Below are positions 2,093-12,643 of a stretch of 12,643 nucleotides of DNA, one piece after another. Origin of the DNA: Chitinophagaceae bacterium (GTDB taxonomy: Bacteria; Bacteroidota; Bacteroidia; Chitinophagales; Chitinophagaceae); assembly GCA_025455245.1 (NCBI GenBank), contig JALOMX010000089.1, forward strand, positions 1 through 12,643, in the 5' to 3' direction. The notes beneath the pieces are model-generated. The model did not search any database. It was not told the origin of the DNA and was given only the letters and a program-made list of their open reading frames with translations. Within the stretch, counting starts at the first letter, position 1; each line of letters opens with the position of its first letter. The position numbers were made by a program, and so were the translations under genes.

Positions 2093-3709
2093 TCAGAAAT
2101 GCCACCTTACAAAGGCTTCCATGGCGGCATATTGGGTTAATCCCAGTTTGGCGTAAAGGTTTGCGGTGTTGGCATTACGCTCTTCAGCCCTTTGCCAGAA
2201 TTCCCTGCTGTCGCTCCCCTGAAACGGAACCATATCTTTTTGGGATTGGTGGATAAAAATGCCGTATCGTTTCTTCATTACCTGATCCGGGCTCATAGGC
2301 ACTGCCATTTCTATTTCAGAAATATCCCACTCCTGCCATGCTCCTTTGTACAGCCATACCCAACAGTCGTTTATCCATTCATCCCCTTGATCTTTAATTC
2401 TTTTCAAACTTTCAAAAACAATGTCAAGACATACCTTGTGGGTCCCGTGGGGATCGGCAAGATCTCCTGCACAAAAAACCTGGTGTGGTTTGATTTTTCG
2501 GAGGAGTTCCATAGTCAGAACTACATCTTCTTCGCCCATAGGATTTTTCTGAACAGTTCCCGTTTCATAAAACGGAAGGTTCTGAAAATGCCATTGGCCT
2601 TCATTCAGCCCTACATACCTGCAGGTAGCGGCTGCTTCGCATCGCCTGATGAGGCCTTTTATTGCCCGGATTTCCGGGGTGTCTACCTGGCTTGGTTTTT
2701 TGTTTTCGAGATATTGTCTTGCCTCATTTAATATGGCTGAAGATTTTTCGGTATCCACATTAAACATACCATTAAAACCAACGGCAAAGTCTAAGAACCT
2801 CGTTACAAACTCATCGGTAACGGCAATGTTTCCACTGGTTTGGTAAGCTACATGTACCTCGTGACCATGATCGTGAAGGCGCATAAAAGTACCACCCATG
2901 CTTATGATGTCGTCATCGGGATGGGGTGAAAAGATCAGGCTGCGCTTAGGTTGTATGTGGCTGCGTTCCGGATGATTGGGGATATCCGCGCCCGGTTTTC
3001 CCCCCGGCCAGCCGGTTATCGTATCGCGCATCATATAAAAAACCTGAAGGTTTATTTCATAGGCATCACCCTTTTCAACCATTAAATCACCCAGGCCATT
3101 TTCGTTATAGTCATAATTGGTTAGACTCAGAATGGGTTTGCCCACTTTGAGGGAAAGATTGATGACTGCCCGGCGAATCATTTTGGGAGTCCACTCAATT
3201 TCACCGGTAAGCCATGGAGATTTTATGCGGGTAAGGTCGCTTGCAGCCTGTTCGTCTATCACAAAAAGACAGTCGTTGTGCTGTTGCAAAAGGCTTGCAG
3301 GTACCTGTTCAGTTACATCTCCCTCAACTGATCGTGCAATAATGGGTGCTTTAAAACCCCAGGCCATCAGGATAATCCTTTTTGCCTTCATGATTGTGGA
3401 GATGCCCGCTGTAATGGCAAGTCTTGGAACCCTGCTGATGTTCTGAAAATCTTTGGCATTGGCAATTCTTGTACTGTTGTCCAAAGTCACCAGCCGGGTC
3501 TTGCTCATAATGCTGCTGCCCGGTTCGTTAAATCCGATATGGCCGTTATTACCGATTCCCAAAATCTGAAGGTCAATACCGCCTTCTGCTTCAATGGCAG
3601 CTTCATAAGCAAGACAATGCTTTTTTATTTCATCCTGTTTCCAGCCACCATCCGGGATGTGGATATTTTCAGGGAGAATATCTACATGGTCAAACAGGTA
3701 ACGGTGCAT
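2093..3709 (-). CDS. nagB: C-terminal NagB plus PIG-L/LmbE domain fragment
   Basis: This frame gives 538 residues from an internal ATG at 3709; the native frame extends further upstream to the duplication. Residues about 1-165 are the remaining NagB domain, with [14 protein letters not shown] at 51-64 (His57 and Glu62 match the catalytic His143/Glu148 of E. coli). The residue equivalent to Asp141 is Asn, as I recall for many NagB enzymes of other phyla. A linker follows. The PIG-L/LmbE domain starts near 255: FSPHPDDD (260-267) and DPHGTH (419-424) are the two zinc-ligand motifs of that family, so this half looks intact. If translated from an internal start, the product could keep deacetylase-type activity without deaminase activity. 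No start signal is evident there, so this is speculative. Confidence 0.7.
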
Positions 3710-3999
3710 AAAGCTCCAGTAGCTTTGAATGGCATCGTGGCATCGCGTTCCAATGGATAATACTCATCAAGGTTAAAGGTGACCACATTTTTAAAACTCA
3801 GGCCTTCTTCTTTATGAAGCCTTACAAGCTCTTTGTACATGGAAATGGGAGAGGATCCGGTTGCCAGTCCGAGTACGCATTTTTTCCCTTCCATTTGTCG
3901 GGCCCTGATGATTTTGGCAACTTCATTGGCCACAAAGGCAGAACCTTCATTTGAGGTTTTAAAAATTTCTACCGGGATTTTTTCGTAAGAATTCACCAT
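3682..3999 (-). CDS. nagB: N-terminal NagB fragment (upstream part of the frameshifted gene)
   Basis: This frame encodes 105 residues from the ATG at 3999. Residues 1-87 are genuine NagB: the LGLATGSSP phosphate-binding loop (about 43-51) and FNLDEYYPL (75-83), whose Asp78 corresponds to the proton-relay Asp72 of the E. coli enzyme. The last 18 residues ([18 protein letters not shown]) come from the wrong frame after the 8-bp duplication and have no NagB character. Alone the fragment lacks the GHIGFNEPG catalytic loop and should be inactive. Confidence 0.7.
3730..3745. repeat. Exact 8-bp tandem duplication inside nagB
   Basis: TGGCATCG occurs twice back to back (3730-3737, 3738-3745). On the coding strand this is CGATGCCA twice. 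The net change of +8 shifts the frame by two. Deleting either copy restores the conserved NagB reading frame exactly, so the extra copy is the derived state. Confidence 0.95.
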
Positions 4000-4051
4000 T
4001 TTTTGAATCGTTTTTTAGAAAACCCAAACAAGGGGTTGCTTAATCCGGTTG

Positions 4052-4059
4052 TAAAAGTA
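4052..4059 (-). promoter_or_regulatory. Possible nagB -7 box
   Basis: TACTTTTA on the minus strand matches TAnnTTTG at 7 of 8 positions and would give a leader of about 45 nt before the ATG at 3999. No clear -33 TTTG lies 19-20 bp upstream. That space is instead occupied by the TTTGCGGT direct repeat, which could suggest activator dependence. Confidence 0.3.
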
Positions 4060-4065
4060 GCCTTA

Positions 4066-4083
4066 TTTGCGGTATTTTGCGGT
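4066..4083. repeat. Direct repeat TTTGCGGT, 10-bp period, upstream of nagB
   Basis: Two identical 8-bp words start exactly 10 bp apart (4066 and 4076), one helical turn, so a dimeric regulator could contact both from the same face. They lie immediately upstream of the possible nagB -7 box. Short AT-flanked repeats arise by chance, so an operator role is only a suggestion. Confidence 0.3.
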
Positions 4084-4313
4084 TTTTTTAAAAGAATTTA
4101 TTGCAAAAAAAAGCAGACCTTGGAAATACCAATCCTTGGTTTTCTTTTTCGTCCTTCAATCCAACCGCCTCATCCGATATTTTGGGTTTTATGTATGGGA
4201 TAAAAAAATCAGGCATTTGGATTCTAAACCGGTTTCTGATTAATTTATGAACCCGGGAAACCCGGTGTTGAAATTTTGCGAAATCATTTCATTCCCCGCT
4301 TATACAGAATACT

Positions 4314-9414: not shown

Positions 9415-11328
9415 ATGAAAAAGGTTTTCATATTTTTTCTCATGACATTTTCCTGTATTTTTCTACCTGCACAAACCTGGACCGGCAATACGAACAGAGA
9501 CTGGAATACGGCAGCAAACTGGAGTCCTGCCGGTATTCCGGGTGCATCATCGAATGTATATATCCCTGGCTCGGTTGCAAGCGGAAACTGGCCGAAATTT
9601 TCAGGTAATGTCATTATAAATAGTATTGATATGCAGGCAGGCAGTCAATTGGATGTAAATGGATTTACACTGACCATCAATGGCAATACTACCTTTATTA
9701 AATTTACAGGCAGTACCCTCAATAACAGTAGCGGTTCAACGGATATTGAAGTTAATTTGAATACCGGGACCGGAGGTTTTTTTACCTTTTTCAGCAGTAA
9801 CAACGTAAATGATAATATTGTAATAAACCTTACAGGTTCCAATCAGTTTGTGGAAGGATACGATGGTACTCCAAACCAATATTTTGGTAATGTAAACTTT
9901 AATATTCATGATCAGCTTCCTGCTTTGATTTCATATCTCGTTCCTTCCATGTACCATGGTAATCTGAGCATATTCCGGACAGTTGCCGGTGGAACAAGTT
10001 TGTTTAATGCAGGTGCATCCATTCTGGGTAATTTTTCCTATACCAACCTTAAGGGTACAGGAACGGGCATTGGAAATCCCGGTGTCAAAACAAATATAGA
10101 TGGTATGATTTCTTTACATGTGTATTACCCGACACCCGGTGGTTTGGAAATGTACCAGGTTCATAATAAAACAGGGGGAGGTTCGGTATCAGTTGAAAAT
10201 TCTCTTGGGTTTGTTTTGAAGAATGACACTTTGGTGGTGGATTCCTTAGTGGTTAAAGGCTATAGAACCGGTCAATACGGTGACCTGTTTAAGAATAAAA
10301 TTACCGGTAACGTCAATATTGAGACTGCTGCAGATTATGGCGGCGGATTTATAACCCGCATCCAGAATAATGTTATCATTGGAAAAACCGTTTTTTCAAA
10401 CAATGGGAGTAATCCTCTTATTGAAGCGGATGCAGTTGGAACCGGAAATTCTTATACAGGAGATGTTACTTTTAATGCCTCAGCCGGACCCATTTACATA
10501 GCTTATAATGCTCCCATTCAATGCTCCAACAACCTGTTAATAAACCGAACCGCTCCTGGACATACGCAAGCCTTTACAAGTGGTGGAACCATAGGGGGGG
10601 ATTTTAGCTATACCAACCAATCGGCTGGGGCTTCACTTTTTGGCAATGGAGCCACTCCAACCAATATTGCAGGTAAAATTAATATAGAAACAGAAGAGAC
10701 CGCTCCCGGCATTTTTCAAATGGTCAGGATCAATAATCAAAAACCGGGTGGCAGTATCATTGTATTGCATCCTGAAGGATTTTATTTAACGAATAATAAC
10801 CTTTTTGTAAATCAATTTACCATTACAGGGTACAAAGGGCCAAATAATAATTATTTTAACGAAAACCTTGTTACCGGAAATGTGACCATTTCGGATGATC
10901 CGGCTTACACCGGCGGCTTTTATACCTATGTTAGAAGTAATTCTATTAAAGGAAACACCGTTTTTTCTAATCTGGGCACTAATGCGTTTCTTGAAGCTGA
11001 TTTGTCAGGAAGTGGCAACCAGTATAACGGAAATGTTACTTTCACTGCCTCTGCCGGTTCAATGTACATTGCTTATGCTGCTGCCCTGCATTGTAGTGGG
11101 AATGTAGTCATTACAAGTACTTCTCCGGGACAAATCCAGGCTTTTGCAAGTGGAGGTTTTATTGGTGGAAACCTTACCTATACGGACAGTATGGGTTTAT
11201 TTTATGGAAATTCTCAGGAGGCGGGCCTGATGGGTATCCGTATACGCGTAGGATGGGATTATTTTGCCTTTTTTCTGACAGTTTTTCTTTTCAGACAATA
11301 TGGTAGGGTGGTGGGTAAAATTGTATGA
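9415..11328 (+). CDS. Secreted repeat protein, probably C-terminally truncated
   Basis: The protein is 637 aa. Residues 1-20 are a clear signal peptide (MKKVFIFFLMTFSCIFLPAQ). The mature start TWTGNTNRDWNTAANWSPAGIP is a motif I associate with very large surface or secreted proteins of Bacteroidota. Three copies of a repeat of about 190 residues follow, starting near residues 108, 298 and 488. Each opens with a G-N-V-type strand and contains GGF, TVFSN-G, IEAD, NVTFxASAG and YIAY blocks. It is rich in N, G, T, S and aromatics with few charges, as in beta-helix or beta-sandwich adhesins. Copy 3 stops near residue 600 (LFYGNS). The last 37 residues have a hydrophobic stretch (WDYFAFFLTVFLF) and a basic end, unlike the repeats. 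No type IX secretion C-terminal domain is present. I infer a truncated adhesin or exopolymer-like protein, exported by Sec; its function is unknown. Confidence 0.75.
   Translation: MKKVFIFFLMTFSCIFLPAQTWTGNTNRDWNTAANWSPAGIPGASSNVYIPGSVASGNWPKFSGNVIINSIDMQAGSQLDVNGFTLTINGNTTFIKFTGSTLNNSSGSTDIEVNLNTGTGGFFTFFSSNNVNDNIVINLTGSNQFVEGYDGTPNQYFGNVNFNIHDQLPALISYLVPSMYHGNLSIFRTVAGGTSLFNAGASILGNFSYTNLKGTGTGIGNPGVKTNIDGMISLHVYYPTPGGLEMYQVHNKTGGGSVSVENSLGFVLKNDTLVVDSLVVKGYRTGQYGDLFKNKITGNVNIETAADYGGGFITRIQNNVIIGKTVFSNNGSNPLIEADAVGTGNSYTGDVTFNASAGPIYIAYNAPIQCSNNLLINRTAPGHTQAFTSGGTIGGDFSYTNQSAGASLFGNGATPTNIAGKINIETEETAPGIFQMVRINNQKPGGSIIVLHPEGFYLTNNNLFVNQFTITGYKGPNNNYFNENLVTGNVTISDDPAYTGGFYTYVRSNSIKGNTVFSNLGTNAFLEADLSGSGNQYNGNVTFTASAGSMYIAYAAALHCSGNVVITSTSPGQIQAFASGGFIGGNLTYTDSMGLFYGNSQEAGLMGIRIRVGWDYFAFFLTVFLFRQYGRVVGKIV
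9736..11214 (+). repeat. Three diverged repeats of about 190 codons in the secreted protein
   Basis: Copies begin near 9736, 10306 and 10876, a 570-bp period. Copies 2 and 3 are the closest (for example TVFSNNGSNPLIEADAVGTG against TVFSNLGTNAFLEADLSGSG); copy 1 is more distant. They have diverged at the DNA level, so recent exact duplication or simple assembly collapse is not evident. Copy 3 covers only about the first 110 residues of the period. Confidence 0.75.
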
Positions 11329-11372: not shown

Positions 11373-12643
11373 ATGGAAAAATTTATTGTATCGGCCCTCA
11401 AGGAAAAATTTATTGTATCGGCCCTCAAGTACCGGCCACAGAATTTCAGTACGGTTATCGGGCAAAAACATATTACCACTACTTTAAAAAACGCCATTGC
11501 CAATAATACCCTTGCGCATGCATTTCTGTTTTGCGGACCAAGAGGGGTGGGAAAAACAACCTGTGCGCGCATTCTTGCCAAGACCATCAACTGCGAAAAC
11601 CTGCAACCCGATGGCGAGGCCTGTAATAAGTGCCGTAGTTGCGAATCGTTCAATAAAAGTTCTTCGCTCAATATTCATGAACTCGATGCAGCGAGCAACA
11701 ACAGTGTTGATGATATTCGCGATCTTGTAACGCAGATTCGCTTTGCACCACAGGAGGGAAAATACAAGATATACATCATCGATGAGGTGCACATGCTTAG
11801 TCAGGCTGCATTTAATGCATTTTTAAAAACCCTTGAAGAGCCGCCTCCCTACGCCAAGTTTATATTAGCAACCACCGAAAAACACAAGATCCTTCCAACG
11901 ATCCTCAGTCGTTGCCAGATTTTTGATTTCAAACGGATTACCAATGCCGATACGGTTGAACACCTTCTTGAAATTGTAGAGAAAGAAAATATTCAGGCAG
12001 AAAAAAGTGCCCTGCAGCTTATTGCTCAGAAAAGTGAGGGCTGTATGCGAGATGCGCTAAGCCTGCTGGATAAGATTGTAAGTTTTACGGGCGCTCAGGT
12101 TAATTATACCAATACCATTGAGCATCTCAACCTGCTTGATGAAGATCAGTATTTTAAACTGCTCGATTCTTTAATCAGGCAAGACATTGCCGCTGCCTTG
12201 CTGCTCTACGATACCATTCATGCACGCGGTTTCGAAGGTGATACCGTACTGAACGGTTTTGCATCAATGCTGCGCAATCTTTTGATTTGCAAGGATGGCC
12301 GGGCAGCTCAATTGCTTGATGTGCTCGAAGGAATGCAAACACGGTATGCAGATGCGGCAGCGCGCATCTCACTCAGCTATCTTGTTTCGGCATTACAGGT
12401 TATTTCGGATGCAGAAATGACCCTTAAAAGTGCCCGTAATAAACGTTTGCATGTAGAATTGGCGCTGATAAAACTTTGTTACCTGCAACAGGTAATTGAT
12501 CTTGCTGTGAGTTCAGAAGGGAAGGTTTTGAAAAAAAAACGGATTGAATCACCCGTTGCTGTTAAAGAAAGGCCACTGAGTCCCATATTGCTCAAAACGA
12601 CCCCTGCTGCCGGTAATGAGGCAAAGCTTACCATTTCTTCGCC
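11373..12643 (+). CDS. dnaX: DNA polymerase III subunit gamma/tau, 3' end off the window
   Basis: DnaX is the ATPase core of the clamp loader that places the beta clamp on primed DNA; the long tau form also tethers the polymerase. The frame is open for 423 codons to the window edge. Seen in order: Walker A GPRGVGKT (55-62); the four zinc-site cysteines 74, 84, 87 and 90; the conserved ELDAASNNSVDDIRDL (103-118); Walker B IIDEVHML (135-142); the SRC motif (179-181) with its arginine finger; and sensor 2 GCMRDALSLLD (223-233). The helical domain III runs to about 380. The N-terminus is odd: EKFIVSALK occurs twice (2-10, 11-19) before YRPQ, where family members have one copy. Three lysines (387-389) encoded by A9 lie at the start of the variable region, a likely frameshift site. 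The tau-specific C-terminus is not in view. Confidence 0.97.
   Translation, partial: MEKFIVSALKEKFIVSALKYRPQNFSTVIGQKHITTTLKNAIANNTLAHAFLFCGPRGVGKTTCARILAKTINCENLQPDGEACNKCRSCESFNKSSSLNIHELDAASNNSVDDIRDLVTQIRFAPQEGKYKIYIIDEVHMLSQAAFNAFLKTLEEPPPYAKFILATTEKHKILPTILSRCQIFDFKRITNADTVEHLLEIVEKENIQAEKSALQLIAQKSEGCMRDALSLLDKIVSFTGAQVNYTNTIEHLNLLDEDQYFKLLDSLIRQDIAAALLLYDTIHARGFEGDTVLNGFASMLRNLLICKDGRAAQLLDVLEGMQTRYADAAARISLSYLVSALQVISDAEMTLKSARNKRLHVELALIKLCYLQQVIDLAVSSEGKVLKKKRIESPVAVKERPLSPILLKTTPAAGNEAKLTISS
11376..11429 (+). repeat. Exact 27-bp in-frame tandem duplication at the dnaX N-terminus
   Basis: Copies at 11376-11402 and 11403-11429 are identical, each encoding EKFIVSALK. Because 27 is a multiple of three the frame is kept and nine residues are added. 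The family consensus as I know it (M-E-x-F-x-V-S-A-x-K-Y-R-P) has the unit once. Confidence 0.95.
12531..12547 (+). promoter_or_regulatory. Candidate programmed slippage site (tau/gamma switch) in dnaX
   Basis: Nine consecutive A (12531-12539) are read in frame as Lys-Lys-Lys. A -1 ribosomal slip, or one extra A in the transcript, gives Lys-Lys-Lys-Thr-Asp and then TGA at 12545-12547, ending the protein just after domain III, as E. coli gamma does. A purine-rich AGAAGGGAAGG lies 5 nt upstream (12515-12525), reminiscent of the stimulatory Shine-Dalgarno-like element in E. coli dnaX. I see no convincing downstream stem-loop. Confidence 0.5.

Follow-up and report, generated by a model that had tools for sequence, protein, structure and literature searches.

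The NagB/PIG-L gene and its frame break

The window analysed here, a stretch of 12,643 nucleotides, is contig C54 of G000, a Phnomibacter-like draft genome (Chitinophagaceae) of 417 contigs and 2.6 Mb that is 78% complete and 2% contaminated. Its minus strand carries a gene of the family NF002557, a glucosamine-6-phosphate deaminase-like protein with a PIG-L domain (PRK02122), which is divided between two frames as assembled. The N-terminal piece, of 105 aa (3682..3999, minus strand), was recognised as an open reading frame with a profile match, and its homology to relatives stops at about residue 87. The C-terminal piece, of 538 aa (2093..3709, minus strand), starts at an internal ATG at 3709 and comprises the remaining NagB domain and the PIG-L domain. 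Used as separate queries in the profile search, the two pieces matched positions 25-109 and 116-651 of the 653 positions of NF002557 with their order kept; the N-terminal piece scored 120 bits, which alone falls under the 384-bit cut-off, and the C-terminal piece 856 bits, which exceeds it. The locus therefore resembles the family in that both pieces match in the right order, but differs from it in occupying two frames where relatives have one.

It was observed that these frames meet within an exact tandem duplication of TGGCATCG (3730..3745, assigned to neither strand), which TRF reported with a period of 8, 2.0 copies and 100% matches. On the minus strand, frame 1 reads MVNSYEK and later TMPFKAT before reaching a stop, frame 2 is open through to the gene end, and the junction falls inside the repeat. 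Both the exact 8-bp duplication and its coincidence with the frame change between two NagB pieces had been described in an earlier note on this DNA, and both were confirmed. The same note held that removal of one copy restores a 632-residue product, and this length does fit when calculated from the pieces, which were searched separately: M95 of homologue P0002 is the counterpart of residue 1 in the 538-aa piece, 94 and 538 add up to 632, and the homologues are 632 aa long.

The open reading frame from the ATG at 3709 overlaps the end of the N-terminal one by 28 bases, and inspection of this overlap by eye recognised no classical slippery heptamer of the kind associated with programmed frameshifting. 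Scans of 3600-4300 returned two promoter-like sites, where 1.7 would be expected by chance, and found no terminator. Upstream of the gene, an imperfect 10-bp tandem (TTTGCGGTAT, 2.3 copies) is found at 4066-4088.

A bare 8-bp repeat is not rare. In the first G000 sample (229,763 bases, some of them masked), dinucleotide shuffles predicted 6.7 exact tandems with a unit of at least 8 and 17 were seen; the shuffle expectation corresponds to about 0.4 per window, and such tandems exceeded the shuffle level in all four sampled genomes. A chance repeat was nevertheless rejected as the full account, since this one sits at the frame change and is missing from the 94 sites located in relatives.

The same site in relatives and the state of the gene

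The comparison with close relatives, which had been proposed as a check, covered 95 related loci, 80 of them from a genome-contig search (the best 80 of 566 confirmed) and 15 from relatives. The break site was found in 94, the exception (L218) not being caught by the site pattern. None of these 94 located sites had the 8-bp tandem; a single locus (L184) presented a shorter chance tandem there. In 92 of the 94 a single open frame ran for 600 aa or more, and the two short frames, of 228 aa (L005) and 336 aa (L007), probably result from contig ends. The 94 loci are not all independent, given that the site sequence is identical in L003/L177, L006/L180, L008/L178 and L009/L179, which are probably the same genomes represented in two collections.

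In the protein search, in which 8000 candidates were scored and 120 listed, the window's own piece was the sole member of its cluster and the nearest matches besides it were 91% identical, so that the 120 matches listed include none from another assembly of this species. Two homologues of 538 aa (P0093 and P0106) have as their first residue the internal Met with which the C-terminal piece of the window also starts; their contigs measure 1751 and 2137 bases, and they may simply be cut off by contig ends.

To assess conservation, 173 distinct full-length homologues were aligned, and 329 columns proved to be at least 95% conserved. The pieces of the window span 325 of these columns and depart from none of them, the median homologue departing at 2 and 19 of the 173 at zero. 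Identity to the nearest homologue was 87% for the N-terminal piece and 91% for the C-terminal piece. The gene is accordingly not decaying and, since neither piece shows decay, the lesion, if real, would be very recent.

A search for PF01182 over 13 genomes found matches in eight, with two each in G007 and G008. In G000 the single match was the broken gene itself, and no second PF01182 gene was detected in the assembled part of this 78%-complete genome. The earlier note had held that a second intact nagB together with further decay would speak against a switch; what was found is one match and no decay. A second contig with the NagB/PIG-L region was not found in G000, and a search of the plasmid collection gave no near match.

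Tandem duplications across the draft

Tandem duplications were surveyed in G000 and in three genomes of the same genus, namely G003 (another draft), G005 (a fragmented draft) and G008 (one contig of 4,372,196 bases). Readable sampled bases amounted to 313,556 in G000, 212,616 in G003, 307,582 in G005 and 392,500 in G008; sampled stretches consisting wholly of N numbered 17 of 61 in G000 and 5 of 40 in G003, which had one further run of 11 Ns, and 7,500 bases were masked in G008. No internal run of Ns was found in the readable stretches of G000.

Perfect duplications with a unit of at least 19 bp numbered six in G000, three in G003 and none in G005 or G008. This excess, when placement is modelled by length alone, has a p of about 0.0009 for G000 against G005 and G008, and of 0.0005 with G003 included; the 19-bp threshold was chosen after the first sample, and the second sample added two cases in G000 (L135 and L136) and none in G003. 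Shorter perfect tandems followed another pattern, with 4, 6, 8 and 3 for units of 10-18 bp and 11, 17, 21 and 28 for units of 8-9 bp (G000, G003, G005 and G008, respectively). The 8-9 bp tandems of G000 are thus at background level, and its excess is confined to long units. Among two-copy tandems with a period of at least 15, perfect and imperfect cases stood at 7:8 in G000, 5:10 in G003, 1:7 in G005 and 0:5 in G008. Extra matching bases at the joints ranged from 0 to 3 in G000, so that microhomology is not the driver there, and were 0, 1 and 5 in G003.

The six long duplications of G000, which come in addition to the 8-bp case, have units of 20-49 bp. One of them lies in the window itself, where TRF reported a perfect, in-frame 27-bp duplication at the start of dnaX (11375..11429, plus strand). 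Among the 118 dnaX proteins in which the motif was located, out of 120 listed, only the copy of the window has this duplication, and the corresponding site in the relative G008 is single-copy. The neighbouring stretch 9415-11328 encodes a 637-aa protein of repeated segments without a Pfam or NCBIfam match, whose last stretch is unlike these segments; the protein may be cut short immediately ahead of dnaX.

The remaining five are located elsewhere in the draft. A 25-bp duplication (L025:2692-2741) causes a frameshift in a conserved ABC-transporter gene; its pieces match positions 1-95 and 99-136 of the 137 of ABC_tran, and G006 and G008 have the gene in a single frame. A 20-bp duplication (L061:2911-2951) splits a DUF805 gene, likewise conserved, into pieces matching 2-31 and 38-111 of 111, and no DNA match across it was obtained in the six relatives searched. 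Another, of 49 bp (L135:4070-4168), lies at the extreme end of a 2Fe-2S subunit gene. The last two are a 25-bp duplication that precedes an alpha-L-fucosidase gene, where relatives match downstream only (L136:301-353), and a 22-bp duplication close to the end of an open frame that has no Pfam match, where the main match of relatives starts past the duplication (L052:7609-7652). Reading frame is ignored throughout: units of 8, 20 and 25 split genes, the 49-bp unit falls at a gene end and the 27-bp unit is in frame.

A control considered duplications that might split genes, taking units from 6 to 120 bp whose length is not a multiple of three, under a limit on frame overlap, and returned four candidates in G000, one in G003, seven in G005 and two in G008. 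Three of the four in G000 (nagB, ABC_tran and DUF805) are splits within one family each; the fourth, L136, lies before the alpha-L-fucosidase gene and was not counted as a split. The G003 candidate falls between two different whole genes. In G005, neither piece has a Pfam match at L106 and L112, where an opposite-strand Pfam-matched gene lies beside the repeat; at L119, L120 and L121 an open frame of 253-470 aa runs across the repeat; and L116 accounts for two of the seven, at one place. The two G008 candidates also share one place (L063), where one was found on recheck to be crossed by a 367-aa open frame and the other, 15 bases off, lies inside the same frame by its coordinates. Outside this control, because its frame overlap is above the filter limit, is a 41-bp duplication of G003 (L099:3476-3557) that splits an FGE-sulfatase-like gene, with matches to 31-98 and 90-133 of 255.

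Origin of the duplication

On balance, it is somewhat more probable than not that the organism lacks the second copy of TGGCATCG, which would be an error introduced locally when the draft was assembled. The earlier note had listed an assembly error as one option, and this now ranks as the likeliest reading. The same few bases would have been written twice at the join of two sequence pieces, and these double-written bases would throw a NagB/PIG-L gene that is intact in all other respects out of frame. An overlap written twice at a join is the best account because the duplications are undiverged, frame-blind, of varied length and spread over unrelated genes of one draft. We infer a common technical origin for them, to which the 8-bp case would belong together with those of 20-49 bp. 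The recurrence of comparable frame-blind lesions within G000, the enrichment of perfect over imperfect two-copy tandems and the lack of decay in the broken gene all favour an assembly error.

The main result against an assembly error is that the excess concerns long units only, the 8-bp class being at background, so that the 8-bp case may have nothing to do with the long duplications. Furthermore, G005 is fragmented yet shows no excess, which indicates that a fragmented assembly is not sufficient as a cause. An excerpt of Chen et al. 2020 (PMC7111523) describes local errors of metagenome assembly, among them flanks that overlap and are retained twice around inserted Ns, and the present case is similar in that duplication of a short stretch at a join makes a gene seem broken. 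However, the duplicated-overlap type in that excerpt has Ns between the copies, whereas no internal N run was found in the readable stretches of G000, so that the error in this draft need not be of that type. In a further excerpt, Cooley and Wright 2024 (PMC11017572) state that many putative pseudogenes stem from assembly.

A real and very recent null mutation is a possible but less probable explanation. An 8-bp tandem duplication arising, for example, by replication slippage would have become fixed or frequent in the strain. The lesion itself was confirmed by TRF and by the frames, 8-9 bp tandems are at background in G000 and require no special process, no other PF01182 gene occurs in the assembled part, and the two pieces are alike in their identity to relatives (87% and 91%). 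However, with no departure at conserved columns the event must be very recent, and other frame-blind perfect duplications exist in the same draft. The earlier description of the lesion as recent would accordingly stand if it is real, given the absence of decay in either piece. A real lesion would mean the very recent loss of a conserved amino-sugar gene. Residues 1-87, which include the NLDEYYPL segment, would be severed from the remaining NagB domain, and the deaminase activity should for this reason be lost; translation starting at the internal ATG (3709) may nevertheless yield the PIG-L domain, the deacetylase half.

A reading that overlaps with such a null mutation is that real, frame-blind tandem duplications of 8-49 bp with almost no joint homology are currently arising in a burst in this Phnomibacter-like lineage, as a mutational signature by which conserved single-copy genes, nagB among them, are broken more quickly than selection has so far purged the lesions. 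This scenario is improbable.

Even less probable is the reversible on/off switch of amino-sugar use that the earlier note had proposed to operate at low frequency, with one 8-bp copy gained and lost by strand slippage. Loss of one tandem copy is mechanically possible, and an excerpt of PMC4022640 cites Waite et al. for phase variation by tandem duplication in capsule genes of pneumococci, where, as here, a duplication within an open reading frame inactivates a gene. As far as that excerpt goes, the two differ, since those are surface genes and this is a metabolic one with a duplication of 8 bp only and no evidence of reversion or mixed alleles. The proposal was not borne out, as there are two copies (2.0) instead of a tract of several units, the repeat is neither conserved nor variable among relatives (no 8-bp tandem at the 94 located sites), no polymorphism or second contig of the region was seen in G000, and other duplications of this draft strike unrelated genes, so that nagB is not singled out. 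In the open-licence library searched, no report was found of short tandem duplications with reversion in bacteria or of 8-bp duplication switches, nor any paper on the NagB/PIG-L fusion in Bacteroidetes; excerpts on a homopolymer (PMC13410964) and on repeats in Borg elements (PMC9879509) are not closely relevant.

Finally, a target duplication left behind by an excised insertion element is scarcely credible: eight bases is a common length for such duplications, but the others of the draft measure 20-49 bp with no fixed size, and nothing lies between the two copies.

If the duplication is indeed an assembly error, it would be wrong to interpret broken genes in G000 as pseudogenes or switches, and a count of long perfect tandem duplications, set beside the counts for close relatives, would offer a quick quality check. 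In G003, two perfect duplications have a unit of exactly 41 bp (L089:448-534 and L099:3476-3557), a shared length that could point to a k-mer size.
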